A stretch of 64,000 nt of DNA, from assembly GCA_004376055.2 (NCBI GenBank), contig CP049016.1:1-64000 (forward strand), written 5' to 3'. This stretch comes from Nitrospirales bacterium LBB_01 (GTDB lineage Bacteria; Nitrospirota; Thermodesulfovibrionia; Thermodesulfovibrionales; Magnetobacteriaceae). This document shows, piece after piece, positions 1 to 32,983 of this stretch. Below the pieces are notes generated by a model, which worked only from the letters and a program-made list of their open reading frames with translations, had not been told where the DNA came from and searched no databases. Position 1 is the stretch's first letter, and each line of letters opens with the position of its first letter. Both the position numbers and the translations under genes were made by a program.

Positions 1-1332
1 ATGGAAATTGAAGAGATTTGGCAGAAGGTACAGGGGGTTTTACAGGAATCTGTGGGAGGAGCTGCGTTTGAACTTTGGTTTAAACCAGTCAAACCTCTTG
101 AGATTAAAGAGCACAGCGCTGTGCTGTCAGTTCCAAACAGATTTTTCAGGGAGTGGATAGAGGACAATTACCCGCAGCTGTTTAATAAGGCATTGGAAAC
201 TGTGCTATCAAAACAGATGAATGTTGTCTTTAAGGTAGATCAAGCGCAAACTAGCGATATTGTAAAAAAAGACACTTTAATGCAAACCCGCAGAACCAGA
301 TTAGCTAATAGAGGTATTCATCTTAATCCAAAATACACGTTTGATAATTTTGTGGTGGGGCCAAGCAATCAGTTTGCGCACGCAGCTGCGCTCGCTGTTG
401 GAGAATCTTTAGGAAAAACATATAATCCGCTTTTTATATACGGTGATGTAGGGCTTGGTAAAACCCATTTGATAAGTGCCATCGGTAACATGGTGATAGA
501 CATAGACCCAAATGCCGCCGTTATGTATGTCTCCTCAGAGCAGTTTACCAACGAGGTCGTAGCGGCAATCAGACACGAAAAGATGGGCGAATTGAAGGAC
601 AAGTACAGGGGTCTTGATGCTCTGCTTATTGACGACGTCCAGTTCATAGCAAACAAGACGCAGACTCAGGAGGAGTTTTTTCACACGTTTAACGCTCTCT
701 ACGAAAAACAGAAACAGATAATAATATCCGCCGACAGACCGCCTAAGGAGCTGACCTCGATAACCGACCGCCTGAAGTCGCGTTTTACGATGGGACTGAT
801 TGCTGACATCCAGCCGCCCTCAATTGAACTTAAGGTTGCTATTTTACAAAAAAAGGCGGAAAACCAGAAGATTTTCCTGCAAGATGATATGGCCTACTAC
901 CTTGCCTCACGCATCAGGTCTAATATCAGAGAGCTTGAGGGCTGTCTGATAAAACTTGCGGCAAACTCCAACCTCACCGGAAACCCTATTAACATTAATA
1001 TGGCAAAAGACGTCTTAAAGGACATCTTTGTTGATGATTTTAAGCCAATCAGCGTTGAGCATATACAAAAAACGGTCTGCGAATACTTTAACATAAAACC
1101 AATTGACATAAAGGCTAAAAAGCGCACTAAAGAGGTCACAGCCCCCAGACAAGCAGCCATGTACATTATTAAACAACTGACGGATTTATCACTTGGCGAT
1201 ATAGGAAAATCGTTTGGAGGAAAAGACCATGCTACGGTTATTTATGCCTGTAAGCAGGTTGAAAGTAAAATAGACAGCGACGAGAACTTTGCTAAAGTAA
1301 TAGAACAATTAATTAACAGAATAAAACCATAG
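1..1332 (+). CDS. dnaA: Chromosomal replication initiator protein DnaA
   Basis: DnaA binds DnaA boxes at the origin and melts it for helicase loading. The 443-residue product has the usual length and layout: an N-terminal interaction domain (about 1-75), a short linker, an AAA+ domain opening near residue 110, Walker A GDVGLGKTH near 148, Walker B ALLIDDVQF near 207, and a C-terminal DNA-binding domain with the signature GKDHATVIYA near 406-415. The window begins exactly at its ATG, so the upstream region, where an origin is often found, cannot be seen. dnaN follows after 15 bp, the classic dnaA-dnaN order. Confidence 0.98.
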   Translation: MEIEEIWQKVQGVLQESVGGAAFELWFKPVKPLEIKEHSAVLSVPNRFFREWIEDNYPQLFNKALETVLSKQMNVVFKVDQAQTSDIVKKDTLMQTRRTRLANRGIHLNPKYTFDNFVVGPSNQFAHAAALAVGESLGKTYNPLFIYGDVGLGKTHLISAIGNMVIDIDPNAAVMYVSSEQFTNEVVAAIRHEKMGELKDKYRGLDALLIDDVQFIANKTQTQEEFFHTFNALYEKQKQIIISADRPPKELTSITDRLKSRFTMGLIADIQPPSIELKVAILQKKAENQKIFLQDDMAYYLASRIRSNIRELEGCLIKLAANSNLTGNPININMAKDVLKDIFVDDFKPISVEHIQKTVCEYFNIKPIDIKAKKRTKEVTAPRQAAMYIIKQLTDLSLGDIGKSFGGKDHATVIYACKQVESKIDSDENFAKVIEQLINRIKP

Positions 1333-1347
1333 TGGAGGTGGTGAGAT

Positions 1348-2454
1348 ATGAATTTTAGAATAGACAGCTTTGAGCTGCAAAAGAGGCTCTCTGACATCCA
1401 GAGCATCATAGAGAAAAAGGCAACAACGCCTGTGTTAAGTAATTTTTTGTTAACTGTAGGAGCAGAAGGCAGCTCCATATACGCAACTGACCTGGATATG
1501 GCCATAAAAGAGCCGATAACGGTAACAAGCGTACAAAAGCCTGGAAAATTCTGTCTCCCTGCAAAAAAGCTATACGAAATAGCACGTGAGATTACAGGCG
1601 AGATAACATTTGAGGAGAGTGAAAACAACTGGGTAACGATTAAGGCCGGTAAGAGCTACTTTCGCATAGCCTGTATTGAGAGTGAGGAGTATCCTCAGTG
1701 GCCTGAAATTGATGAGGGCAGGCAAATCATAATAGACGCCCGCAATCTGCTTGGCATGATTGAAAAGACTTTTTACAGCGCCGGAGAGGCTGACCCGCGC
1801 TATACGCTTAACGGGGTTCTGTTTCATATCTTTGGAGAGCAAAAGAAGATGATGCTGGTAGGCACCGACAGTCACAGACTTGCCGCTATTGAAACCGATA
1901 TAGATGTTCCTTTTAACGATGAACTAAAACTCATAGTGCCGCGAAAAACCGTAAGTGAGCTAAAGAAATTCCTTACAGGAATTGAGGGTGATATATCTTT
2001 TGACATCTCACAAAACCACATCAGGTTTAATATTTTTGAAAAGGAGTTTCTGACTAAGCTGATAGAGGGTTCATATCCAGCATACGACCAGGTGATACCA
2101 AAAAATAACGACAAAACAGCGGTGATAGCCCGTGAGGAGTTTATATCGGTCTTAAAAAGAGTTGCCGTTATAAACCGTGACAAAAGTAAAATCATAAAGA
2201 TAGATATAAGTGAAAATGAGATGGAGATATTTGCTACCGACCCGGAGCTTGGCGAGGCGCGGGATTCTATGGACGTCAGATTTGACAGCGACACGCTGAG
2301 TGTCGGCTATAACTCCCGGTACCTGCTTGAGCTTCTGTTAAACATGGAAACAGAAAATGTCGTGATTAAATTTCTGGACAGTCAAAACCCCACTCTGTTT
2401 ATGGAGGAGGGTGTAGAGCGCTACCGATGCGTAATTATGCCGGTGAGGATGTAA
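1348..2454 (+). CDS. dnaN: DNA polymerase III beta subunit (sliding clamp)
   Basis: This is the ring-shaped processivity clamp that tethers DNA polymerase to DNA. The 368-residue product has the normal length for three repeated clamp folds. It starts MNFRIDSFELQKRLSDIQSII, contains RYTLNGVLFH and GTDSHRLA in the second domain, and ends with the typical VERYRCVIMPVRM, where the MPVR/MPMR tail is diagnostic. A strong ribosome binding site (GGAGGTGGTGAG) precedes the ATG. Its position right after dnaA supports the call. The next gene starts 5 bp after its stop, so the two are probably co-transcribed. Confidence 0.98.
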   Translation: MNFRIDSFELQKRLSDIQSIIEKKATTPVLSNFLLTVGAEGSSIYATDLDMAIKEPITVTSVQKPGKFCLPAKKLYEIAREITGEITFEESENNWVTIKAGKSYFRIACIESEEYPQWPEIDEGRQIIIDARNLLGMIEKTFYSAGEADPRYTLNGVLFHIFGEQKKMMLVGTDSHRLAAIETDIDVPFNDELKLIVPRKTVSELKKFLTGIEGDISFDISQNHIRFNIFEKEFLTKLIEGSYPAYDQVIPKNNDKTAVIAREEFISVLKRVAVINRDKSKIIKIDISENEMEIFATDPELGEARDSMDVRFDSDTLSVGYNSRYLLELLLNMETENVVIKFLDSQNPTLFMEEGVERYRCVIMPVRM

Positions 2455-2458
2455 GGTA

Positions 2459-3376
2459 ATGATGAGAAGACTGACTGATGCGGAATTTATAGAGGAGCTG
2501 AGGGCGCGCTTTGAGGACAAGGAAAAAGCGCTTACAGATATCCGCATGATGACAAGAAAACTTGAAGAGGTCAACGCAAGGCTGCAGGAGTCTGAGGCGC
2601 TCAGAAGTAATTTTTTGTCAAATATAAAAAATGAACTAAACAACCCCATGACCTCCATAATGGGTCTTTCCGGGCAGCTTTCCGTAAATGCCTCAACCCT
2701 TGATTGTAATGACATTAAAGCAATAGCCGAGCTGATTCACGAGGAGTCGTTTGTGCTGGATTTTCAGTTGAAAAATATCTTTATGGCGGCAGAACTTGAA
2801 TCCGGAGAGACAACGCTCACCCATGTCATGGTTGACGTAGTTTCGCTTATTTCAAGCATCATTGATTCTTTTAGTAAGGTGGCGGCAAAAAAGAATGTTA
2901 CTATTAATTTTTCACCTGTTTTCGCTCAAGCTACTGAGGTAAATGGCAATGAGTTCTTTTTTGTAACCGACTCTGAAAAACTGCAGTTAATTCTCACAAA
3001 TTTAATAAGTAATGCAATAGAGTTTAGTAAAGAGGGCGGCACTGTAGAGATAACGCTTTCAAGGTCAGACGGGATGCTTCAAATAGTGGTAAAAGATTAC
3101 GGCATTGGGATAAGCAACACGAGTTTGAGAGCAATATTTGACAGATTTGTTCAGGTTGACTTTGGAACTATGAAAGCTCACAGAGGGCATGGACTTGGTT
3201 TAAGCATAGTGAGGACACTTGTTGATCTGATAAACGGTAAAATTACAGTTGAATCTGAGATAGATAAGTGGACGGAGTTTACGTTGATTTTGCAGGAGTT
3301 GGAGGGTCAGGTAGAGATGGATTCTTTCTCCTCAGAGGGTAATGACTTTCTTTTTGACGATGAGCAGCAGTTTTAA
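2459..3376 (+). CDS. Histidine kinase-like protein lacking the phospho-acceptor histidine
   Basis: The 305-residue soluble protein has a coiled-coil start (about 15-48), a dimerisation helix of HisKA type, and a GHKL ATPase domain (about 150-280). The ATPase has an N box (TNLISNAIEFSKEGG), a G1 box (DYGIGIS) and a G2 box (HRGHGLGLSIV). In the HisKA helix the usual xSHELRTPLxxI reads KNELNNPMTSI, so the phosphorylated His is Asn58. ATP binding looks intact but classical autophosphorylation should not occur. There is no sensor domain or membrane segment. The gene sits 5 bp after dnaN and 8 bp before cheD, so it is probably in their operon. It may be a scaffold or allosteric partner of another kinase. 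The function is unknown. Confidence 0.8.
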   Translation: MMRRLTDAEFIEELRARFEDKEKALTDIRMMTRKLEEVNARLQESEALRSNFLSNIKNELNNPMTSIMGLSGQLSVNASTLDCNDIKAIAELIHEESFVLDFQLKNIFMAAELESGETTLTHVMVDVVSLISSIIDSFSKVAAKKNVTINFSPVFAQATEVNGNEFFFVTDSEKLQLILTNLISNAIEFSKEGGTVEITLSRSDGMLQIVVKDYGIGISNTSLRAIFDRFVQVDFGTMKAHRGHGLGLSIVRTLVDLINGKITVESEIDKWTEFTLILQELEGQVEMDSFSSEGNDFLFDDEQQF

Positions 3377-3383
3377 ATTATAG

Positions 3384-3845
3384 ATGAACGAACATTTTTT
3401 GTATCCGGGTACGCTGCTTGCCGATAAGGCTCCGTATGCGATAACTACGGTGCTGGGCTCTTGCATATCAGTGTGCCTGTGGGATCCGCAGCTGCGGCAC
3501 GGCGGGATGAATCATTACCTGCTGCCGCTTTGGAACGGTGAGGGATTGGCCTCGCCAAAGTACGGAAACATAGCGATAGCTAAACTTATAGAGAAGGTGA
3601 TGTCTTTTGGCTCAACTAAAAGAAATCTACAGGCAAAGGTATTTGGCGGAGCAGCTATGATGGAAAGTTCCTCGGGACTTTTAAACGTGGGCGAGCGAAA
3701 CATCTTAATAGCGCAGGATATACTTTTTGAGGAAAAGATAATGATAACCGGCTCAGACGTTGGCGGAAACCAGGGGAGAAAGATAATTTTTAACACAGAA
3801 ACCGGCGTTGTGTTAGTTAAAAAGGTGAAAAAGAGCACAGGGTAA
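3384..3845 (+). CDS. cheD: Chemoreceptor glutamine deamidase CheD
   Basis: CheD deamidates specific glutamines on methyl-accepting chemotaxis proteins and in some bacteria binds CheC. The 153-residue product shows the family core TTVLGSCISVCLWD and GGMNHYLLP. Cys27 and His44 fall at the catalytic positions and Thr21 is present as well. The middle also fits the family (KYGNIAIAKLIEKV, AKVFGGAAMM). It lies 8 bp after the Asn58 kinase-like gene and before gyrB, away from any receptor or cheC gene in this window. The start is placed at the ATG eight bases after the preceding stop; no strong ribosome binding site is visible. Confidence 0.95.
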   Translation: MNEHFLYPGTLLADKAPYAITTVLGSCISVCLWDPQLRHGGMNHYLLPLWNGEGLASPKYGNIAIAKLIEKVMSFGSTKRNLQAKVFGGAAMMESSSGLLNVGERNILIAQDILFEEKIMITGSDVGGNQGRKIIFNTETGVVLVKKVKKSTG

Positions 3846-3868
3846 CAGATAAAGAACTCTTGAAAAAG

Positions 3869-3942
3869 ATTAATCCGCAGCTGACGCAGATGAATGAAAA
3901 ATAATCTGCAAAAATCTGTGCAATCTGCGGAAAAAAAATCCT
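3869..3942. repeat. Dispersed inverted repeat with CCGCAG arms, copy 1
   Basis: Between cheD and gyrB, arms beginning ATCCGCAG and ending CTGCGGAAAAAAA form an imperfect hairpin (CCGCAG..CGCAGAT against ATCTGTG..CTGCGG) followed by an A-rich run. A related copy lies at 13985-14049. The gyrB ribosome binding site follows directly, so the hairpin lies in the gyrB leader if transcription comes from cheD. Confidence 0.7.
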
Positions 3943-3951
3943 TAGAGGTGA

Positions 3952-6384
<2,433 letters not shown>

Positions 6385-8972: not shown

Positions 8973-11900
8973 ATGAAGCGGATTACTGCAAAAGATTTAG
9001 AGCGATGGGCTGATGCCCGTCAATCAGAAGCTGACTTACCGGAACTGATAAAGCTTCTGATTTTTGCGTCTGCAAAAAATATTGCCAGCATACGATTTCC
9101 TTCTTGTGAGTATGTTAATCGTGCCGGTTGGGATGGACAGCTCATTTGTTCAGATGGATTACCACAATTTGTTCCAAAAGGAAATTCTGTATGGGAATTA
9201 TCAACATCGAAAGATGTTTCAGGCAAAGCATGGAGTGATTTTGACAAACGTTCATCAAAAAGTGGGAGACCTTTACCGGCTGATTTTGAATTTGAAACTA
9301 CTACTTATGTTTCTGTTTCTCTTAGATTTTGGAATGAACCAACAAAAATAGAACGTAATTCTCGTGATGGTTTTATAAAAGAGGCTAAATCACGTAATAT
9401 CTGGTCGGATGTTAAAGTACTGGATGCAACAAATTTAGAGGATTGGATTAAACAGTATACTTCAGTTGGGCTATGGTTAGCAGATTTAGGAGTTGGCACT
9501 TTATCTGCAAAAGTTAAAAGTATTGATGAGGTATGGGAACTTTGGAGTAATATCAGTATCCCCCCAATAACTGAAAGTCTGATTTTAACAGAACGAGAAG
9601 AACACAAAACAAAACTAGTTGATTTGCTTATGCAAAAATCAGAAATTATTCGAATCAGAGCAGATTCACCACAAGAAGCACAGGCATTTGTAATTTCTGC
9701 AATTAAATCCTTAAATGGAAATGACCAACGATATTATCATTTATATTCAAGGTCAATAGTTGTAAATGATGAGGAGACAGTAAGACGGTTACTAAATAAC
9801 GAACATACTCTTTTAATCATAATATTGGGAGATGCTGTTAGAGAATCTGCAGGAATGCTTACAGCAAAAGGCCATACCGTTGTCATCCCTTTGGGTAATT
9901 CACATAAAGAAACACCAGATATTTTTCTTAAACGTCCCGGTCTAAAAGCATTTGCTAATGAGCTTCACAGATCAAGCAATATTAGTTTGGACGATGCACA
10001 ACTTAAAGCACGTAGTTGTAGGCGAAGTGTAACAGTATTTCAACGACTATATCCTTCAGGTACTGCACCAAGCCCGCCGTGGGAAAATAATTTAGAACCA
10101 CTTATCCCTGCCATATTTGCAGGGGCATGGAAAAATGGAAATAACAATGACAGGCAGGTTATTGAAGCGTTATCAAGAGACAAATCATACGAAGAAGTGG
10201 TTCAAGATTTACATCAATTTCTTTCAGAGGATGACCCGCCCATTTTACGTATAGATGATGTTTGGACTCTTTCGGCTCCGGTTGATTCTTTTACACATGC
10301 AAGTCGTTTAATAACAGAATTTGATTGGCAACGTTTTAGTGATGCTTGTGCTTATGTTTTTAGTGAAATTGACCCATGTATAGACTTACCAGCAAATGAA
10401 AAAATGTTAGCTAATATAACAGGAAAAACATTACCCCATTCTAAATGGCTTAGAGATGGACTTGCTCAAACATTATTACTTATTGCAGTACATGGAGATG
10501 GTCGTATGTTCCCACACAATTTAAAGAACCAAATGTTTGTTGATGAGTTAATAAGGCAATTACCAGGACTTTATACAAACAGCAGACTTTTGATAAGCCT
10601 TAGTCAGCAGTTACCGGTACTGGTTGAGGCAGTGCCTGACCCTTTTGTTGAAGCCCTGGAGTGTCTGCTTCAGGGCAAAGACGAAATAGCAAAAACCATA
10701 TTTACCGATAGTGATTCTCCATTATGGACATCCTCTCCGCATACAGAAATATTATGGGCTTTGGAGATGCTTGCTTGGGATCCGCAATGGCTGGCACGTG
10801 TCTGTATAATACTGACAAAGCTCTCAGAAATTGACCCTGGCGGTACTTATTCAAATCGTCCTATAAACAGTTTATACAAGATTTTTTTACCGTGGCGTCC
10901 CGGAACTAATGCGACCCTAAAAGAACGAATGGAGGTGATAGACCTTATTCTTAGAGATTCGCCAGAAAAAGGATGGAATTTAATAACAAGTTTGTTACCA
11001 AAAATTCATGAAAGTGCTTCTCCTACATATGAACCTTTATGGCGTGAAGCCGGAAAATCACAACGTGAAGTATTTACAGATGAAATTGAACAATCTACCT
11101 ATAATGAAATTATCAATCGTGTTTTAGATAATGTTGGAAATAAACCTGAACGATGGAGGGTTATTTTAGATTCATTTCCACGTTTAACTCCAGTTCAACG
11201 CATAAAAGCTTATGATATGTTAGAATCTGTTCCAAAGGTGAATTTAAGCGAAGATATAATGTATGATTTTTGGGAATTATTTCGAGAATTTACATATAAA
11301 CATAAAGCGTTTAGTGATGCTTTTTGGGCGCTTCCCGGAAATGAAATTAACAGGTTGCAAAAAATAGTTGAGTCCTTTGAACCTTTTAATCTAATAAAAC
11401 GATATAAATGGCTGTTTGACAACTTTAGTCCGCTTTTACCAAGTCAAAATAAACCAGAGGTTGATTCATCTGCAGATTTAAAGTCATTACGCCATGAAGC
11501 CCTAAAAAATATAATCAAGGCAGACGGTACTGTTGGGATATTAGAGTTTGGAAATACTGTTTCATTTCCTAGTCTAATATCTGATTCTTTAATTGAATAT
11601 TTTAGTAACTTAGAGGAATTATTTCAATTTATAGAAAAAACTAAAAGTTATGGAAATAACGGAAAAATAATATCCAGAGTTCTATCCTCTCATGCTTATC
11701 TGAAGTACGGGAAAGAGTGGAAAAAATATTTATTTAATCATATAAAAATGAGTAATTGGGATAATGAGTTAGTGGCAAATGTGATTTTAGATTGGCCTGA
11801 TAATATGGATACATTTTCATCAGTAAACTCTCTTGGCACTGACATAGAGAATTTATATTGGTCAAAACGTTCGGCATTTATAAATGAACCTTCAAAGGAG

Positions 11901-12797
11901 ATTTGTACATTTTTTATAAAGAAACTTATTGAGGTGAAAAGGTCTGTTGATATGGTACATTCTGTCTATAGATTTGCCTCTTCCATAGAGACTGAATTAC
12001 TTATTGATCTTTTAGATAGCGTTTTAGAGGAATTGAGTATGAAGTCTGAAAGTAAGCAGGTTAATTTGGATAGCTATGATGTCAGAGAAATATTTGATAT
12101 ATTAAGAAAACGCGATAATATTTCACATGATAAACTATTAAAACTTGAATATTTATATTTACCTTTGTTAATAGAGGTTGGCGGTAAAAGTGAACTAACC
12201 TTACATAAAAGTCTTGCCTCTGAACCGGAGTTTTTTATAAATATTGTTTGTGACGTGTATAAACCATCATCAGGTATTGAAGAGGAAACCATAGATGAAA
12301 ATACAAAAGCACGTGCACAACTGGGTTTCCGTTTATTAAACGCATGGAAAACACCTCCGGGGTTGATGGATGATAACTCTTTCGATGCCGATAAATTAAA
12401 AAGTTGGATAGAAAAAACCACAGAGCTTGCTAAGGAGAAAAACCGCCTTGAAATTGCAGATTATCACATAGGCAAAGTACTCGCTTATGTTCCTGATGAC
12501 CCTGATGACAATGTATGGCCGCATAAAGGCGTACGTGATATTTTTAAATTATTAAATGATAAAATTGAAGAGGGAATGTTAGCAGAGCAATTGGTTATAC
12601 AAGGTGTGTACCAGAAGAGCATTAATGAAGGTGGAGAACAAGAACGAGAGTTATCAAATAAATGGAAGGAAAGGGCTCACGCCGTAGGCAATAGATGGCC
12701 AAGCACTAAGGCGTTACTTAATAAGATAGCTAAAATGTGGGAAAACCAAGCTGAACAAGAAGATATACAAGCTGAGCTTAGAAATCTCAATAGATGA
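8973..12797 (+). CDS. Large protein: putative PD-(D/E)XK-like N-terminus, degenerate STAND-like NTPase, helical C-terminus
   Basis: I do not recognise a named family for this 1274-residue protein. Residues 1-175 resemble a restriction-endonuclease fold: RAGWDGQ (Asp54), then SVWELSTSKD with Glu75 and nearby lysines 80 and 85. Residues 200-345 look like the start of a STAND NTPase, but the P-loop is replaced by RADSPQEAQAF (about 229-239). A Walker B-like hydrophobic strand ends in LIIILGD near 281-287. The remaining roughly 900 residues appear alpha-helical and repeat-like, ending INEGGEQERELSNKWKERAH. The gene is visibly richer in A+T than gyrA and contains many TTA and ATA codons, suggesting transfer. 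Nuclease-sensor architectures of this kind are common in phage defence, but that role is inference. It has no obvious partner gene. Confidence 0.6.
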   Translation: MKRITAKDLERWADARQSEADLPELIKLLIFASAKNIASIRFPSCEYVNRAGWDGQLICSDGLPQFVPKGNSVWELSTSKDVSGKAWSDFDKRSSKSGRPLPADFEFETTTYVSVSLRFWNEPTKIERNSRDGFIKEAKSRNIWSDVKVLDATNLEDWIKQYTSVGLWLADLGVGTLSAKVKSIDEVWELWSNISIPPITESLILTEREEHKTKLVDLLMQKSEIIRIRADSPQEAQAFVISAIKSLNGNDQRYYHLYSRSIVVNDEETVRRLLNNEHTLLIIILGDAVRESAGMLTAKGHTVVIPLGNSHKETPDIFLKRPGLKAFANELHRSSNISLDDAQLKARSCRRSVTVFQRLYPSGTAPSPPWENNLEPLIPAIFAGAWKNGNNNDRQVIEALSRDKSYEEVVQDLHQFLSEDDPPILRIDDVWTLSAPVDSFTHASRLITEFDWQRFSDACAYVFSEIDPCIDLPANEKMLANITGKTLPHSKWLRDGLAQTLLLIAVHGDGRMFPHNLKNQMFVDELIRQLPGLYTNSRLLISLSQQLPVLVEAVPDPFVEALECLLQGKDEIAKTIFTDSDSPLWTSSPHTEILWALEMLAWDPQWLARVCIILTKLSEIDPGGTYSNRPINSLYKIFLPWRPGTNATLKERMEVIDLILRDSPEKGWNLITSLLPKIHESASPTYEPLWREAGKSQREVFTDEIEQSTYNEIINRVLDNVGNKPERWRVILDSFPRLTPVQRIKAYDMLESVPKVNLSEDIMYDFWELFREFTYKHKAFSDAFWALPGNEINRLQKIVESFEPFNLIKRYKWLFDNFSPLLPSQNKPEVDSSADLKSLRHEALKNIIKADGTVGILEFGNTVSFPSLISDSLIEYFSNLEELFQFIEKTKSYGNNGKIISRVLSSHAYLKYGKEWKKYLFNHIKMSNWDNELVANVILDWPDNMDTFSSVNSLGTDIENLYWSKRSAFINEPSKEICTFFIKKLIEVKRSVDMVHSVYRFASSIETELLIDLLDSVLEELSMKSESKQVNLDSYDVREIFDILRKRDNISHDKLLKLEYLYLPLLIEVGGKSELTLHKSLASEPEFFINIVCDVYKPSSGIEEETIDENTKARAQLGFRLLNAWKTPPGLMDDNSFDADKLKSWIEKTTELAKEKNRLEIADYHIGKVLAYVPDDPDDNVWPHKGVRDIFKLLNDKIEEGMLAEQLVIQGVYQKSINEGGEQERELSNKWKERAHAVGNRWPSTKALLNKIAKMWENQAEQEDIQAELRNLNR

Positions 12798-25226: not shown

Positions 25227-28200
25227 ATGTTTAAAAATCTTAAAATAGGAACCCGCATTACTCTTGGGTATTTACTTATACTGTCTATTTTCCTTCTTCT
25301 GTCTTTTTATGCGATAAGCAAACTGGATTATACAACCGAGCAAACAAAAAACCTCTACGAACATCCTTTTACGGTAAAAAGTAATCTGCTTTCTATACAA
25401 GCAAATACTTTCAGAATAAGATTTTTATTAAGAAAGGCTTATACTCAGACAAATAATGATGACTTAATGGATACTAAAATACTGGTGTCCTCTATTGAAC
25501 CTCAAATAATAAATGAACTTACAGCAGTGGAAAATCTCTTTTTAGGCGATAAGAAATTAATAAAACAAATTCATACTAATTATGACAAATACATGTCCCT
25601 TCACGATGATTACTTTAATCTGCTGCTACAGGGTAAAAAAACTGAAGCGCTAACGATGCTTGATACTAAACTTTATGCAAATGCCGCAGAAAATGAAAAA
25701 CTAATAAAAGAAGCTATGGATTTTGCATCTAACAAAGCAGAGTCATTTTATGAAAACACTCAAAAGTCAAACAAAGAATCTAAAAATATTCTCTATATTA
25801 TTTTGGGTGTTACAATCTTTTTAAGCTGCATTTTTGCATTTGTATTTATACGAAGCATCACAGCTCCGGTTGTTGATTTGATAGAAGCAACTAAAGAAGT
25901 CGGCTCCGGTAATCTGAGTTTAAATATGGCAGTATCTTCACGCGATGAAATCGGACAATTATCCAGAGAATTTCAGAATATGATTGAAAACCTACGCGCT
26001 ATATCGTCAGAGAGAGATATAGACGACTGGAAAAAAACCGGATCCGCTACAATAGGCGAAATAACGCGCGGTGAGCAAGACATCGTCACTCTATCTCAAA
26101 ACCTGATAAAATTTATTTCAGAGTATATGGGAGCTTTGATAGGGGCAATCTATATGACCCAGAAAAATCAAAAAGTACTAAAACTAACCGGCACGTACGC
26201 TCACAACACACGAAAGAACTTGTCAAACAAGTTTGCCTTTGGCGATGGTCTTGTGGGGCAGGCAGCGCTTGAAAAGCAAACCATAGTGCTTACCAATGTG
26301 CCCAATGATTATATAAAAGTTACATCGGGGCTTGGAGAAAGAGCACCTTCAAATATAATGGTTACGCCGCTTATTTATAACGGAGAAGTCAAAGGCATAA
26401 TAGAAATCGGCTCATTTATCGCCTTTACCGAGCATCAAACTAAGTTTATGAATTCCGTCTCAGAAAATATTGCTATAGCCTTCAATACCGCTCAATCACG
26501 TGAGAGTATGAAAGAGCTTTTGGAAATTACTCAAAATCAGGCCGAAGAGCTTCAAGTGCAGCAGGAGGAACTGATAGCCAACAATGAAGCTCTGGCAAAT
26601 CAGACAAAAATTCTGAAAGAATCTGAAGTTAAACTTCAGGAACAGCAAGAGGAACTAAGACAAGCCAACGAGGAACTTGAAGAGCACGCTCGCCTTATGG
26701 AAAAACGGCGCGATGAGATTCGGAAAAAGAACATTGAGCTTGAGAAAAATCAGGAAGTTAACCTGCAAAAAACCAAAGAGCTTGAAATAACAAGTAAGTA
26801 CAAGTCCGAATTTTTGGCTAACATGTCCCATGAGCTAAGAACTCCGCTTAACAGCATACTCCTGCTTTCAAAATTCCTCTCACAAAATAAAGACACTAAC
26901 CTTACCGAAAAACAAATGGAATGCGCCAACACTATTCACTCCTCAGGGAAAGACCTGCTCAGTCTGATTAACGACATTCTGGATTTGTCAAAAGTTGAGG
27001 CCGGCAAAGTTGAGCTGCACGTTGAGGCTATTGAGACAGACAGAGTGAAAGCATTCATAGAGAGCAATTTCTATCCCTTTACACAAGAGAAACACCTGTC
27101 ACTGAACGTGACTATTTCGGAAAATGCGCCAAAATATATTCACACCGATATTCAAAAAATGGAGCAGATAATCAGAAATCTGCTGTCTAACGCCGTCAAG
27201 TTTACAGAAAAAGGCTCAATTACGGTAACAATAGATAAGGCCTCAGTTGATAGTGTGTTATCAATTTCAGTTGCCGACACAGGCATTGGAATCCCTCAGG
27301 ATAAACTTTCCGTGATATTTGAGGCATTTAAACAAGCCGATGGCACAACAAGCAGAAAGTATGGAGGCACGGGGCTTGGGCTTACCATTTCAAAAGAGCT
27401 TGTTAAACTCCTTAGAGGCGAGATAATAGTAAAGAGCGTATTTGGCTCAGGGAGCACCTTTACCATACTGCTTCCTGATTTAAAAAGCCTTGCTCCGGCT
27501 CAAGGACACCCTGAGGAGAAACCATATGAAACAATGGCTGACACACCGCCTGTAAAAAGAGAACCTGCGTTAAAAGGAAAGACGTTAGAGGACGACAGAG
27601 AGAGCTTATCTGATGGGGGCAAATCGGTTTTGATAATAGAAGATGACACGGCATTTGCAAAAATCCTGCTTGATGTAAGCCGCGAAAGAGGCTATAAGGG
27701 TATAATAGCGCAGGATGGAGAACACGGCATAGAATGCGCACACAAGTACAAACCTGATGCGATAATTCTGGATATGGGACTGCCCGATATGGACGGCTGG
27801 ACGGTAATTGAGCGCCTTAAAGACTCATCAGAGACTCGCAGCATTCCGATACACATAATCTCTGCGTCGGAAAAAAACATAGACGTCATTAAATCAGGCA
27901 GTGTTGGTTATCTGACAAAACCTGTTACAATGGAAAAAATTGAAGAGGCTTTCAACAAACTGGAAAGTATATTTTCAGGCGAAAAGAAACAGATTCTGGC
28001 AATACACCTTGAACCTCAACAGGAGTCTGCGCTTAATGAGCTGATTAAAAACACAAATGTAGGCGTCAATTATGTATCGGCAAAGAAGGCTCAACAGATA
28101 GTGGAAACAAATACTTACAACTTTATTGTAATGAACCTTACCGACAATGAACCCGTAAGTTTTAGTTTCCTTGATAAAATTAAAAACACGGAAACCTTAA

Positions 28201-28787
28201 ATACCATCCCGATAATAGTCTATAACAGCTCACGGCTAAGTGTTGCTGATGAGATAAAACTCAACATGTATGCTCACAGGTTAGTGTTAAAAGTAGTAAA
28301 ATCACCCGAAAGGCTGCTTGATGAAATCGTATTATTTTTACATCTTGAGGAATCACAATTGTCTGAGGAAAAAAGAAAAATACTTCTTAAAGTACGCGAC
28401 AAAGAAAGCATATTTAGAGACAGAAACATTCTGATAACCGACGATGACTCAAGAAACGTGTTTGCTCTTACAAGCATTCTTGAAGAGGAGGGAATGAACG
28501 TACTTGTTGCAAAAAATGGCATAGAGTGTCTTGATGTGCTACAGCAAAACGATAAAATTGAGGTCATATTGATGGACATAATGATGCCTGAGATGGATGG
28601 TTACACGGCAATAAAAGAGGCACGAAAAATCAGACGCTATAAAGACATCCCAATCATAGCGCTTACGGCAAAGGCGATGAAAGAGGACCGCATGAAGTGT
28701 ATTGAAGCCGGAGCAAACGATTATTTGTCAAAACCTATTGATAAGGATAGGCTTCTGTCGCTGCTGCGGATTTGGTTATATCAATGA
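25227..28787 (+). CDS. Membrane hybrid histidine kinase: 4-helix sensor, HAMP, GAF, HisKA, HATPase, three receiver-like domains
   Basis: This 1186-residue protein has a membrane segment at 13-32, an extracytoplasmic four-helix-type sensor region (about 33-185), a second segment near 188-208, HAMP to about 265, a GAF domain (about 285-430) and a long coiled coil (430-525). HisKA follows with FLANMSHELRTPLNSIL (His535), then an ATPase with NLLSNAVKFT, DTGIGIP and GGTGLGLTI. Receiver 1 (801-915) has ILDMGLPDMDG. The second (about 925-1040) is degenerate, with FIVMNLTD and no phospho-Asp. Receiver 3 (1065-1180) has LMDIMMPEMDG. It is probably a phosphorelay hub for the CheR/CheB and kinase genes that follow. 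The ribosome binding site is AAGGAGA. Confidence 0.93.
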   Translation: MFKNLKIGTRITLGYLLILSIFLLLSFYAISKLDYTTEQTKNLYEHPFTVKSNLLSIQANTFRIRFLLRKAYTQTNNDDLMDTKILVSSIEPQIINELTAVENLFLGDKKLIKQIHTNYDKYMSLHDDYFNLLLQGKKTEALTMLDTKLYANAAENEKLIKEAMDFASNKAESFYENTQKSNKESKNILYIILGVTIFLSCIFAFVFIRSITAPVVDLIEATKEVGSGNLSLNMAVSSRDEIGQLSREFQNMIENLRAISSERDIDDWKKTGSATIGEITRGEQDIVTLSQNLIKFISEYMGALIGAIYMTQKNQKVLKLTGTYAHNTRKNLSNKFAFGDGLVGQAALEKQTIVLTNVPNDYIKVTSGLGERAPSNIMVTPLIYNGEVKGIIEIGSFIAFTEHQTKFMNSVSENIAIAFNTAQSRESMKELLEITQNQAEELQVQQEELIANNEALANQTKILKESEVKLQEQQEELRQANEELEEHARLMEKRRDEIRKKNIELEKNQEVNLQKTKELEITSKYKSEFLANMSHELRTPLNSILLLSKFLSQNKDTNLTEKQMECANTIHSSGKDLLSLINDILDLSKVEAGKVELHVEAIETDRVKAFIESNFYPFTQEKHLSLNVTISENAPKYIHTDIQKMEQIIRNLLSNAVKFTEKGSITVTIDKASVDSVLSISVADTGIGIPQDKLSVIFEAFKQADGTTSRKYGGTGLGLTISKELVKLLRGEIIVKSVFGSGSTFTILLPDLKSLAPAQGHPEEKPYETMADTPPVKREPALKGKTLEDDRESLSDGGKSVLIIEDDTAFAKILLDVSRERGYKGIIAQDGEHGIECAHKYKPDAIILDMGLPDMDGWTVIERLKDSSETRSIPIHIISASEKNIDVIKSGSVGYLTKPVTMEKIEEAFNKLESIFSGEKKQILAIHLEPQQESALNELIKNTNVGVNYVSAKKAQQIVETNTYNFIVMNLTDNEPVSFSFLDKIKNTETLNTIPIIVYNSSRLSVADEIKLNMYAHRLVLKVVKSPERLLDEIVLFLHLEESQLSEEKRKILLKVRDKESIFRDRNILITDDDSRNVFALTSILEEEGMNVLVAKNGIECLDVLQQNDKIEVILMDIMMPEMDGYTAIKEARKIRRYKDIPIIALTAKAMKEDRMKCIEAGANDYLSKPIDKDRLLSLLRIWLYQ

Positions 28788-28827
28788 GAGAGATTAGCCT
28801 TAAAAAATGTAAATTACCGGAGGAAAA

Positions 28828-28968
28828 AAAGACTGGATTCCCGCTCGGAGGCGGGAATGACAAATGTAGAGGCGGGGATGACAAAGAAGAGCGATTTTAC
28901 AGGGGAATCCCCTTTGGGGAGGTCATTCCTCCCTTCTTTGTCATTCCTGCGAAAGCAGGAATCCAGTT
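28828..28968. repeat. Dispersed palindromic element with long centre
   Basis: This copy lies between the hybrid kinase and cheR. The order is ACTGGATTCCCGC..GCGGGAATGAC, then a central ACAGGGGAATCCCCT palindrome and GGGGAGGTCATTCCTCCC, then TTTGTCATTCCTGC..GCAGGAATCCAGTT. It shares its centre with the inverted copy at 24935-25102. The two copies bracket the hybrid kinase gene in inverted orientation. Confidence 0.85.
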
Positions 28969-29056
28969 ACTTATCAGCAACACTGAACACAAAAGCTATT
29001 TTATTTATTTATATTTCTGAATGTAATTCGGTATTAAACAGGAGAAACCTTAACAC

Positions 29057-29923
29057 ATGGACTACTACGACAGCGAAGACAACGAAAACCTGGAAATTAT
29101 GCTCCTGCTTGAAGCAATACACGCAAAGTACGGGTATGATTTCAGAAATTATGCTAAAGCCTCGATAAAACGGCGAATAAAGCACAGGATGTCCATAGCC
29201 GAGATTGATAAAATAACTGAAGTTATAGAGAGAGTTATTTATGACAGGTCATTTTTTCTTGACCTTTTGGGGGATTTTTCAATCAGCACTACCGAGATGT
29301 TCCGTGACCCCACTTTTTTTCAGGCTTTTAGAAAAACCATAATACCTGAGCTTCAAAAATTACAGCATATAAAAATATGGGTTGCAGGGTGCTCTACCGG
29401 CGAGGAGGTTTACTCGCTTGCCATAACCCTGAAAGAGGAAAATCTATACGATAAAGCCACAATTTATGCAACCGATTACAGCGAAAAATCGCTAAGACTT
29501 GCTAAAGAAGGCGTGTTTGATTTGAAATTGCTGAAAAAATATGCTGCAAACTATTTACAGTCCGGCGGCGTTCACTCTTTCAGCGATTATTTCACTGCAA
29601 AAGAAAACTTAGCGGCCATTGATAAGTCATTACGGCAAAACATAGTGTTTTCAATTCATAACCTGACTACAGATGGAGTGTTTGGCGAGATGAACATGAT
29701 TTTTTGCAGAAACGTGTTGATATATTTTAACAGAGACCTTCAAAACAGGGTCTTTGGGCTCTTTACCGAATCATTGGAACACGGCGGATATCTCTGTCTG
29801 GGGTCAAAAGAAACCATCCGGCTTTCAAACTTTTCCGATAATTATACACAGGTTCTAACAGACGAAAAGATATACAAAAGAAACGACAGCCCGGTCACTT
29901 TCTCCGGCAAAACTTCTACATGA
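29057..29923 (+). CDS. cheR: CheR-type protein-glutamate methyltransferase
   Basis: CheR uses S-adenosylmethionine to methylate glutamates on chemoreceptors. The 288-residue product has an N-terminal helical domain (SIKRRIKHRM), then ISTTEMFRDPTFFQAFR, the SAM-binding motif IWVAGCSTGEEVYSLAI, YATDYSEKSLRLA, and the typical FCRNVLIYFNRDLQNRV followed by GGYLCLGSKETI. All expected motifs are present. The cheB gene overlaps its stop by 4 bp (ATGA). With no receptor, cheA or cheW nearby, the pair may serve a non-chemotactic phosphorelay. Confidence 0.95.
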   Translation: MDYYDSEDNENLEIMLLLEAIHAKYGYDFRNYAKASIKRRIKHRMSIAEIDKITEVIERVIYDRSFFLDLLGDFSISTTEMFRDPTFFQAFRKTIIPELQKLQHIKIWVAGCSTGEEVYSLAITLKEENLYDKATIYATDYSEKSLRLAKEGVFDLKLLKKYAANYLQSGGVHSFSDYFTAKENLAAIDKSLRQNIVFSIHNLTTDGVFGEMNMIFCRNVLIYFNRDLQNRVFGLFTESLEHGGYLCLGSKETIRLSNFSDNYTQVLTDEKIYKRNDSPVTFSGKTST

Positions 29924-30513
29924 GCTATGAAGCTGTTGTAATAGGAGCTTCTGCCGGTGGGCTTGATGCGCTTAAAACAATATTTAGCGCACTCCCTGCC
30001 GATTTTCCCCTCCCTGTCATTGTAGTCCTACACCTGCACCGTGATACTAAAGAGGAGTTGATTAATTTTCTTAATGTAGGCACACGATTAAAAGTCAAAT
30101 ATGCCGAAGATAAGGAAAAAATCAAAAATTGCACAATATACATAGCTCCGCCGGATTATCACCTTTTAATAGAAGACGACAAAACGCTGTCGCTTTCAGT
30201 GGATGCGCTGGTTAATTATTCCCGTCCCTCCATTGACGTGCTTTTTGAATGTGCTGCTGATGTATTTCGTGAGCATTGTTTTGGTATAATACTAACAGGG
30301 GCAAATAGTGACGGGAGTGGGGGGTTAAAGAGGATAAAAGAAAAAGGGGGTATGGCTATAGTGCAAAACCCGCATAGCGCAGAATATTCGGCTATGCCAA
30401 CTGCGGCAATAGCAGTAACTGATGTGGATTATATTTTAGATATTGAAGAGATTGCAGGGAAAATAATGGAGCTGGTAAGGATGAGCGTTTATGCAAAACA
30501 TATTAATAGTTGA
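29920..30513 (+). CDS. cheB: CheB-type methylesterase domain without receiver
   Basis: This 197-residue methylesterase hydrolyses receptor glutamyl methyl esters. The catalytic triad is visible: Ser11 in IGASAGGLDAL, His in VVLHLHRDT, and Asp in ILTGANSDGSGGLKRI. Classical CheB carries an N-terminal receiver that controls activity; here the protein starts directly at the esterase domain. The next gene begins with a receiver domain and overlaps this one by 23 bp, so control may be exerted in trans. It is translationally coupled to cheR. Confidence 0.95.
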   Translation: MSYEAVVIGASAGGLDALKTIFSALPADFPLPVIVVLHLHRDTKEELINFLNVGTRLKVKYAEDKEKIKNCTIYIAPPDYHLLIEDDKTLSLSVDALVNYSRPSIDVLFECAADVFREHCFGIILTGANSDGSGGLKRIKEKGGMAIVQNPHSAEYSAMPTAAIAVTDVDYILDIEEIAGKIMELVRMSVYAKHINS

Positions 30514-32983
30514 CGACAAAGTAGAAAACTTACTGGTACTGGAAACTCTCCTTGAGCGGTCCGATTTAAATTTAGTGAAAGCGTCAAATGGCAAAGAAGC
30601 TCTCTGGAAACTCCTTAGTGATGACTTTGCCCTTGTAATACTTGATGTGCATATGCCCGAGATGGACGGCTTTGAAGTAGCAAATCTCATTAGAAAAAAC
30701 AAGAGAACAAGGACGCTGCCAATAATTTTTGTAAGTGCTTCACACGGAGAGGAGGCGTCTGTTTTCAGAGGTTATGAAACCGGCGCCGTGGATTACTTAG
30801 TAAAACCTGTGGATGATGTAGTTTTAAAAAGCAAAGTAAACATTTTTCTTGAACTTGACAAGCAAAGGCAGACAATAATTGACAATTCACTGCAGCTGCG
30901 TAAGGCAAACGAGGAGCTGCGGCTTCAAAGTGAGATATTGGATAATATGTCTGAAGGGGTCATACTTATTAAAGCCGCCGATGGCGCCATTGTATTTACT
31001 AACCCAAAGTTTGAACAAATGTTTGGTTATGACACAGGAGAGCTAATTGGCAAAAATATCTCTGTTGTTAATGCTCCAACTGAGAAAACTCCCGCGGAAA
31101 CAGCAAATGAAATTATAGAAGCACTAAATAAAAACAACCACTGGCAAGGCGAAGTCTGTAATATTAAAAAATCCGGCAAGCATTTTTGGAACTCTGCACA
31201 TGTTTCAACCTTTGACCACCCAAAATACGGTAAAGTGTGGGTATCTATACACAATGATATAACGCAAACTAAAAAAGCTCAATATGAGCTTAAGACAGAA
31301 AGAGACAAACTCAAAAGAATAATGGAGACAATGCAAGACGGCGTCCTTATAACAAACAAAGAATATGAGATAGAGTATATCAATGACGCTATAACAAAAG
31401 AGTTTGGGGATGTAAACGGGCGTAAATGCTATGAGTATTTCCATAATGAAACAACACCCTGCCTGTGGTGCATAAATGAAGAGGTATTTTCAGGTAAAAG
31501 CATTGTAAGGGAGACGTTTTCAACCACAAACAATAAAACATATTCGGTTTTTGAGACACTCATAAGAAATATTGACGGCTCTGTGTCTAAGTTTGAAGTC
31601 ACTCATGATATTACAGATATTAAACACGCTCAGGCGATGATGAAAAGGGAGCTTGAGTTTCAAAGCGCAGTTGCCGAGGTGTCTGAGGCTTTGCTGTCAA
31701 CTCATACAAGCATTTACGACATTGGAGAAATAATCCACAAACAGGTTCTAAAACTGACAGGTTCTTTATATGCCTATGTGGCAGATATTGATCACAAAAC
31801 CGAAGAGGTCGTAACACTTGCTTACAGCAACATGGCAAGCTCAAAGGTATGCACGGTAGAAGCGAGATACTATAGAACGGCATTTCCCAAAGGCAAGGAT
31901 GGTTACAACGCTTTGTGGGGGCACTCATTAAATACAAAAGAGGGGTTTTATACGAATAATCCTCAAACACATCCGGCTTTTAAAGGCTGTTTCCCTCCCG
32001 GGCATGTTCCGTTAGACAGGTTTCTCTCTGTCCCTGCGATGATAGGAGATAAGCTTATAGGACAGATTGCTCTTGCCAACTCAGAAAGAGATTACACCGA
32101 TGAGGATTTAAATATTATAAAACGCTTCTCAACAATTTTTGCACTGGCTATTGAACGTAAAAGAATGGAGGAGCAACTTAATGAGTTAAATACTCATCTT
32201 GAGGCGATGGTAGAGGAGGAGACGGAAAAAAGACTAAGTCAAGAGCAGATGATGATTCAACAGTCTAAGATGGCAGCGATGGGGGAGATGATAGGGCTAA
32301 TTGTCCACCAGTGGAAACAGCCGCTAAATGCTGTAGGACTTACCATACAGGACTTAAGAGATACTTACTCCTACGATGAGCTTAATGAAAAATATGTAAA
32401 TGACACCGTTGAAACTATGATGTCGCAGCTCATTTTCATGTCAAAGACGATAGATGATTTCAGAAATTTCATTACACCCTCAAAGAAAAAAATCCGGTTT
32501 GATGTCAATACTGCTATAGAGGAATTGCTGTCAATGTTTGTAAATATTTTTGTCAAAAACAATATAGATGTTTCAGTGAAAGCCGATAACGATGCGTTAC
32601 TGACAACACTTGGCTATCCAAATGAGTTTAAGCAGGTGGTACTAAGTATCTTAAATAACGCAAGGGATGCAATTGTATTACGAAAGGAACACGGCAGCGA
32701 AATAAAAGGCTTTGTTAAGATTAATATAACCAACGATGAGGACAAATCTAAAATCGTAATTTCAATAAAAGACAACGGCGGAGGAATTGCTGATGATATT
32801 ATGGAAAAAATCTTTAAGCCATATTTTACAACTAAGGAAATTGAGGGCACAGGGATTGGGCTTTATATGTCTAAGACAATAATAGAGACAAATATGGGCG
32901 GCAGTTTGATAGTTGCCAATAAAAACGGCGGAGCAGAGTTTGTGATAAGTTTAGATGTTTACAGTGGTGAAGAAGGTGGATAG
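30491..32983 (+). CDS. Receiver-PAS-PAS-GAF histidine kinase
   Basis: This 830-residue cytoplasmic kinase begins with a receiver domain (NILIVDDKVENLL, VILDVHMPEMDG, DYLVKPVDD; about 1-120). Two PAS domains follow (about 148-265 and 275-390; the second has a CLWC pair of cysteines), then a GAF-like domain (about 395-570). The kinase core of the HxWKQP type has LIVHQWKQPLNAVG (His606), and the ATPase has ILNNARDAI, DNGGGIADD and GTGIGLYMSK. The N-terminal receiver may receive phosphate from the upstream hybrid kinase. The last eight codons and the stop appear to come from an inserted repeat element that begins near 32955. Confidence 0.92.
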   Translation: MQNILIVDDKVENLLVLETLLERSDLNLVKASNGKEALWKLLSDDFALVILDVHMPEMDGFEVANLIRKNKRTRTLPIIFVSASHGEEASVFRGYETGAVDYLVKPVDDVVLKSKVNIFLELDKQRQTIIDNSLQLRKANEELRLQSEILDNMSEGVILIKAADGAIVFTNPKFEQMFGYDTGELIGKNISVVNAPTEKTPAETANEIIEALNKNNHWQGEVCNIKKSGKHFWNSAHVSTFDHPKYGKVWVSIHNDITQTKKAQYELKTERDKLKRIMETMQDGVLITNKEYEIEYINDAITKEFGDVNGRKCYEYFHNETTPCLWCINEEVFSGKSIVRETFSTTNNKTYSVFETLIRNIDGSVSKFEVTHDITDIKHAQAMMKRELEFQSAVAEVSEALLSTHTSIYDIGEIIHKQVLKLTGSLYAYVADIDHKTEEVVTLAYSNMASSKVCTVEARYYRTAFPKGKDGYNALWGHSLNTKEGFYTNNPQTHPAFKGCFPPGHVPLDRFLSVPAMIGDKLIGQIALANSERDYTDEDLNIIKRFSTIFALAIERKRMEEQLNELNTHLEAMVEEETEKRLSQEQMMIQQSKMAAMGEMIGLIVHQWKQPLNAVGLTIQDLRDTYSYDELNEKYVNDTVETMMSQLIFMSKTIDDFRNFITPSKKKIRFDVNTAIEELLSMFVNIFVKNNIDVSVKADNDALLTTLGYPNEFKQVVLSILNNARDAIVLRKEHGSEIKGFVKINITNDEDKSKIVISIKDNGGGIADDIMEKIFKPYFTTKEIEGTGIGLYMSKTIIETNMGGSLIVANKNGGAEFVISLDVYSGEEGG

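Follow-up and report, generated by a model that had tools for sequence, protein, structure and literature searches.

Few natural pseudo-histidine kinases appear in the literature that we found, the worked example being DivL of Caulobacter, which has the kinase fold with a non-histidine residue (Tyr550) at the histidine site. DivL binds DivK~P and is neither a kinase nor a phosphatase; its ATP binding is poor and its nucleotide sites closed (PMC4211667). Ordinary HisKA kinases such as HK853 of Thermotoga, whose acceptor histidine is numbered His260 (PMC5727384), join DHp helices to a HATPase_c domain, and in those of the CrdS/NtrB type Glu-x-x-Asn-Pro follows the acceptor site (PMC3510030). In the adaptation branch of chemotaxis, CheC of Bacillus and Thermotoga is a non-receptor partner of CheD, and F7-type clusters carry a CheR-CheD-CheB cassette. 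Here we describe a locus in the first 64 000 nucleotides of contig CP049016.1 of Nitrospirales bacterium LBB_01 (the window, meaning the whole stretch analyzed), where an open reading frame (ORF) with an ATG start at 2459–3376 on the plus strand encodes a histidine-kinase-like protein of 305 amino acids, given the working name pHK, that has no phospho-acceptor histidine and is followed directly by cheD (3384–3845, plus strand).

Like the HisKA kinases, which provide its best structure matches, pHK has DHp helices and a HATPase_c domain, and it shares the Glu-x-x-Asn-Pro of the CrdS/NtrB type. It differs from them in that asparagine replaces the acceptor histidine in all members, that we found neither a sensor nor a membrane domain, and that CheD is a fixed partner; its HisKA match in the window (residues 49–114) is also weak, at 22.5 bits against a Pfam cut-off of 26.9. 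In contrast to DivL, all pHK proteins have asparagine rather than tyrosine at the acceptor site, Pfam finds no PAS domain in the window protein, and the ATP-binding motifs are complete; the DivL pathway is also different. CheC has a different fold, and pHK contains no CheC domain; the likeness would lie in partnering CheD in chemotaxis adaptation, and both kinds of gene can share one operon. The pHK loci of Bacteroidota resemble the F7-type cassette in having cheR, cheD, cheB, receptors and a SpoIIE-type phosphatase (F7 stage 1 order, PMC7184735), yet with pHK inserted directly before cheD. Three proteobacterial plasmid loci (L222, L226 and L230) have CheR-CheD-CheB without pHK, its absence having been checked for the first two.

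Asparagine at the phospho-acceptor position

A first-pass annotation of this DNA had proposed that the phospho-acceptor histidine is replaced by Asn58 within KNELNNP. The codon at 2630–2632 (plus strand) indeed reads aat, and a profile alignment to HK853 places Asn58 on the acceptor histidine of ISHELRAPLT. In the adjoining Glu59-x-x-Asn62 (2633–2644, plus strand), the same alignment puts Asn62 at the Thr/Asn-type residue four past the acceptor site, which is the phosphatase position of HisKA kinases.

A first search of 60 genomes identified 18 pHK proteins including that of the window, all with Asn58. The profile built from these 18 found 33 places in 395 Nitrospirota genomes at E-values of 1.3e-76 or better, while ordinary kinases scored 3.4e-51 or worse. 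All 33 were read: Asn58 is present in 33/33 and no histidine-bearing orthologue was found, while position 59 is Glu in 31 and Gln in 2, and position 62 is Asn in 29, Ser in 3 and Asp in 1. This is the better figure for Asn58, as the profile search used no asparagine pattern, although the profile itself was built from asparagine-bearing members. A larger set of 101 distinct pHK sequences has Asn58 throughout, against histidine in 25/25 ordinary kinases; this count is not independent, since the set includes 80 loci obtained from a contig scan by a peptide pattern containing Asn58. In the same set Glu59 occurs in 99 (Gln in 2), Asn62 in 96 (Ser in 3, Asp in 2) and Pro63 in all 101, and the ATP-binding motifs are each kept in 100 or 101 members. 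Among the 25 ordinary kinases, position 62 is Thr in 17, Asn in 6 and Ser in 2. Counting identical sequences once reduced 115 to 98, plus the window. A quick tree of 53 of the 101 pHK and 25 ordinary kinases (kept from 28 found with full coverage) separates the two groups with support of 100; one pHK alignment (A2) likewise covers 53 of 81 possible sequences, namely the window and the 80 loci.

The closest named relative of the window pHK is from a Nitrospirae metagenome-assembled genome (MAG; 88% identity), and the gene is also present in Candidatus Magnetominusculus sp. LBB02; both findings support an origin of the DNA in Nitrospirota. Among plasmid records, the best 12 of at least 5000 matches are at most about 34–37% identical, which is the level of ordinary kinases. 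The most divergent members, in genomes G064 and G073 (L158 4226–5134 and L159 3935–4942), keep Asn58 with Gln59 and Ser62 and have an MCP-like gene upstream.

A missing catalytic residue could also mark a decaying gene, that is, a kinase that lost its histidine and is drifting. Against this, the same asparagine and ATP motifs recur in 101/101 relatives that reach down to about 37–40% identity across several phyla, a degree of conservation that refutes decay and leaves it a negligible probability. As read from these alignments, the loss of the phospho-acceptor histidine is not a recent mutation and is fixed across the relatives.

CheD as a constant partner

The cheD product of the window matches Pfam CheD at an E-value of 1.7e-28 (99.3 bits against a cut-off of 25). 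Its catalytic Thr22, Cys27 and His44 (3447–3515, plus strand) correspond to the Cys/His/Thr triad described for T. maritima CheD (PMC7022378), and each is found in 99/99 paired CheDs. The gene lies directly after pHK in 116 of 117 loci, and in the remaining one (L153) the contig ends at pHK; the 117 loci count some genomes twice and represent 98 distinct paired CheDs. When 134 CheDs were placed in a careful tree, these 98 fell on one side of a branch and the 36 others on the opposite side (support 97/92; 96% of 200 bootstrap trees). Adding ten further CheDs, eight of them from proteobacterial plasmids, left the paired clade unchanged with support of 93. When a CheD profile was run against the same 395 genomes, the 33 places scoring at least 200 bits were in the same genomes and at the same places as pHK, and G007, a genome of the window's family that is 92% complete, has neither gene. 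These comparisons show pHK and a distinct CheD clade to be one co-inherited two-gene module.

The paired clade has a motif of its own, W50 N51 G52 x G54 L55 xx P58 xxx N62 (3531–3569, plus strand). W50, N51 and P58 occur in 99/99 paired CheDs and are rare in 46 others; they follow shortly past His44 and, judged by sequence position, probably lie near the active site. The signature that we retained for paired CheDs consists of W50, N51, G54, L55, P58 and N62. Another candidate signature (C31, G41, N43 and G61) was dropped, being common to proteobacterial CheDs. Genome G000 has a second cheD (L051 6863–9430; G000:C1 about 3161862–3164429) in CheR-CheD-CheB order with no pHK, and this copy falls outside the paired clade.

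Predicted structure and the retained ATP site

The AlphaFold2 model of pHK, built from 53 aligned sequences (mean pLDDT 84.9), has a long helix (residues 7–76) and a second DHp helix (83–115), followed by an ATPase domain and by a tail that is weakly predicted. On the plus strand of the window, the N-terminal helix of residues 7–45, in which Pfam finds no sensor domain, corresponds to 2477–2593 and the DHp helices of residues 46–115 to 2594–2803. The ATPase domain (residues 121–280) occupies 2819–3298, with the HATPase_c match at residues 171–279 (E-value 6.3e-27), and the C-terminal tail (residues 285–305) occupies 3311–3373. The top matches of the model among solved structures are HK853-RR468 complexes, most with TMt of 0.85–0.88, while DivL ranks 17th with TMt of 0.85. 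Beyond HATPase and HisKA-type matches, the Pfam scan returned merely a chance-level SKA2 match, and neither a CheC nor a CheX domain was matched up to an E-value of 0.1. Among the 25 best of 82 NCBIfam matches, none passes its curated cut-off, the top one being PnpS at 158 bits against 400.

The ATP-binding domain had been annotated as complete, and we agree: the N-box (N181/N185), G1 (D213xG215xG217), F-box (F230) and G2 (G243xG245xG247) motifs are all found. Such full retention would be expected if pHK were still a kinase, phosphorylating either another residue or the histidine of a second kinase with which it forms a mixed dimer, and so would the retained Glu59, whose counterpart in CrdS is needed for kinase activity (PMC3510030). 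However, the only histidine conserved in more than 80% of pHK is His244 (91%), which lies in the ATP lid (G2 box GHGLGL, 3188–3190), no tyrosine or threonine reaches that level, and no ordinary kinase gene recurs notably among the neighbors. We consider continued kinase activity very improbable.

The same motifs bear on whether pHK is purely a scaffold, in which the tail would tether CheD either to CheR/CheB or to the array of receptors, no receiver would be bound and ATP would merely stabilize the fold. The tail is weakly predicted (low pLDDT at residues 293–297) yet conserved, with the motif GNxFxF in 92 of 99 distinct pHK sequences; it recalls receptor tethering pentapeptides such as NWETF (PMC2577667), and the constancy of the CheD partner also fits. 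Mere tethering would have no need of an ATP site whose motifs are all kept across the family, and we regard a pure scaffold as rather unlikely.

Genomic surroundings and hosts

In the window pHK is separated from dnaN by 4 nt (2455–2458) and from cheD by 7 nt (3377–3383), rather than by the 5 and 8 bp first annotated. The order dnaA-dnaN-pHK-cheD-gyrB is found in 15 of the 16 pHK-bearing genomes of the window's family, and the pair is not beside dnaN in G009 of that family, in G022 or in either copy of G055. Of the gene order in the window, cheD holds nearly throughout, while the dnaN neighbor is confined to one family. The first-pass annotation had also suggested a link to replication or motility. 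The tie to chemotaxis stands through CheD; the tie to replication is unsupported because the pair lies outside the dnaN region in G009, G022 and G055, and elsewhere often in chemotaxis operons. With CheD constant and dnaN lineage-bound, we reject a general link to replication. A clamp-binding function of the tail motif was considered and set aside.

Within six gene calls of the pair, 89 distinct placed loci include CheB in 43, CheR in 35, CheA in 26, a receiver protein in 25 and CheW in 20, and two MCP clusters are found in 11 and 6. Each neighbor cluster is named from one representative, gene calling lost 9 of 98 loci, and many loci have short flanks, so that the figures are minimum values; at some Geobacter-type loci the pair alone is visible. 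Examples of chemotaxis operons are CheA-MCP-CheW-CheR-CheB-pHK-CheD (L216) and, in Bacteroidota, CheA-CheW-MCP-CheR-pHK-CheD-CheB-CheY (L107). Genome G055 has two pHK-CheD pairs (L049 4166–5748 and L050 6927–8345), each after MCP-CheR-CheB, with Ser at position 62 in the first and Asp in the second. Host labels comprise Nitrospirota, relatives of Geobacter and Desulfuromonas, Magnetococcales, Bacteroidota, KSB1 and Calditrichota; they are mostly MAGs, and single assignments may be wrong. Isolates among the hosts are Trichlorobacter thiogenes and Oryzomonas japonica.

A scan of window positions 1200–4100 gave 6 promoters against 5.3 expected and 6 terminators against 2.3 expected, the sole plus-strand terminator lying inside pHK. 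Elsewhere in the window, an ORF of 1274 amino acids directly after gyrA (8973–12797) has no Pfam match up to an E-value of 0.1 and a chance-level PADLOC match. At 25227–32983, an ORF of 1186 amino acids with a histidine-kinase region is followed by two ORFs, the second of which carries a CheB methylesterase domain (29935–30465), and then by one of 830 amino acids.

Proposed role of pHK

Taking the precedents of CrdS, HK853, DivL and CheC together, the best single reading, which we hold tentatively, is that pHK, dead as a kinase, senses a phosphorylated receiver (CheB~P or CheY~P) and controls CheD; it would act in the manner of CheC or DivL while being a member of neither group. The protein would be a soluble dimer in which the ATP site of HisKA kinases and their fold for docking a receiver are both retained; having no phospho-acceptor, it would feed no phosphate into a pathway, and the flow of information would be reversed. 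The CheA of its chemosensory system would phosphorylate CheB or CheY, which would then dock on the DHp bundle and change the shape of pHK; pHK in turn would bind, withhold or release CheD, a receptor-modifying enzyme, such that CheA output is fed back to receptor adaptation. Asn62 may add weak phosphatase activity toward the bound receiver, and our guess is that the conserved tail is the peptide on which CheD or a receptor would most likely dock. We infer receiver binding, CheD binding and the direction of control from these likenesses. The operon company of CheB and CheR, pointing to receptor modification, supports this reading, as do the fixed Asn58 next to a preserved ATP site, the module formed with CheD, and the fold matches to HK853-RR468 complexes and DivL. 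In this role pHK would do for CheD what the unrelated CheC does in Bacillus, the agent being a converted histidine kinase; CheY~P raises the affinity of CheC for CheD, and that binding matters more than either enzyme activity (PMC3513319).

Several observations weigh against a receiver-sensing regulator of CheD. Within the window's family no other che genes lie near the pHK-CheD pair, and the five CheB and 17 CheW-domain places of the window genome are all elsewhere. CheC/FliY/CheX-type domains are found in 23 of 60 relatives, including 16 of 18 pHK carriers, and Bacteroidota operons hold a CheC/CheX-like gene near the pair; of three such members checked, L139 exceeds the CheC cut-off with 33 bits, and the other two match CheX at scores under the threshold. 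Because of these co-occurring domains and genes, pHK does not simply stand in for CheC, and the idea of a CheC replacement is weakened. The next match of the CheD profile, in G154 (192.8 bits), has no adjacent pHK and lies in MCP-CheR-CheB-CheD; it has W50, N51, G52 and G54 and lacks L55, P58 and N62. Because G064 and G073 carry Gln59 and Ser62, a Glu-x-x-Asn phosphatase would not extend to the whole family. In a coevolution analysis of the two proteins, with 100 rows and an effective number of 77, the top pairs T65-I65 and D296-N101 exceed 20 shuffles, which do not preserve relatedness and so allow no conclusion either way.

The Asn62 position brings in a further alternative, in which pHK lost its kinase half to become a dedicated phosphatase, Asn62 positioning a water molecule for hydrolysis of CheB~P or CheY~P, with CheD coupled as it is to CheC. 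The prevalence of Asn62 in pHK, compared with the mostly Thr-bearing ordinary kinases, would suit such an enzyme. The catalytic pair of CheC/CheX/FliY phosphatases is Glu-x-x-Asn; most pHK have E59-x-x-N62, and some carry Q at the first of these positions or S/D at the second. For HisKA phosphatase activity only the Asn of the pair is needed: in CrdS, Asn375 is required for phosphatase activity alone and Glu372 for kinase activity alone, and much phosphatase activity survives loss of the histidine (PMC3510030). Yet position 62 is Ser or Asp in five pHK while Asn58 is invariant, and CrdS N375D has no significant phosphatase activity (PMC3510030). In HK853, moreover, His260 and Thr264 both take part in dephosphorylation, with H260A activity diminished (PMC5727384), DivL has the fold and no phosphatase activity (PMC4211667), and the kinase residue Glu59 persists in nearly all pHK. 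We judge a dedicated phosphatase unlikely.

A bolder possibility, which we regard as a long shot, is that CheD itself docks on the DHp helix at Asn58-Glu59, as it does on CheC and on the helical modification sites of receptors. It might even deamidate this site, turning Asn58 into Asp or, in G064 and G073, Gln59 into Glu, with the phosphorylated receiver competing for the same face. This is conceivable because Asn58 is more constant than Glu59, which would be odd if a receiver alone read that face, and because CheD acts on Gln in helices and N-terminal Asn is the target of NTAN1, a relative of CheD in fold (PMC7022378). The CheD site on CheC is much like that of receptors, and a Gln put there is deamidated (PMC3513319). 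If true, a histidine kinase would have been turned into a decoy receptor for a receptor-modifying enzyme.

The open-access literature that we searched, including the text (figures aside) of papers on chemotaxis in Geobacter, Desulfuromonas and halophiles and across species, contained no description of the pHK-CheD pair in the portions covered; cheD is noted beside unnamed non-che genes in some clusters (PMC2577667). Within this literature, pHK is a pseudo-histidine kinase in an undescribed role, and the pair suggests that the machinery tuning bacterial responses to chemical signals has a component not yet described. Because pHK is widespread, with one letter fixed at its acceptor site, its ATP site intact and its enzyme partner constant, it would offer a clean test of whether pseudo-kinases read receiver phosphorylation. 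Our results suggest that models of chemotaxis adaptation for Nitrospirota, Geobacter-type bacteria and Bacteroidota miss a part, for which cultured hosts exist for testing.
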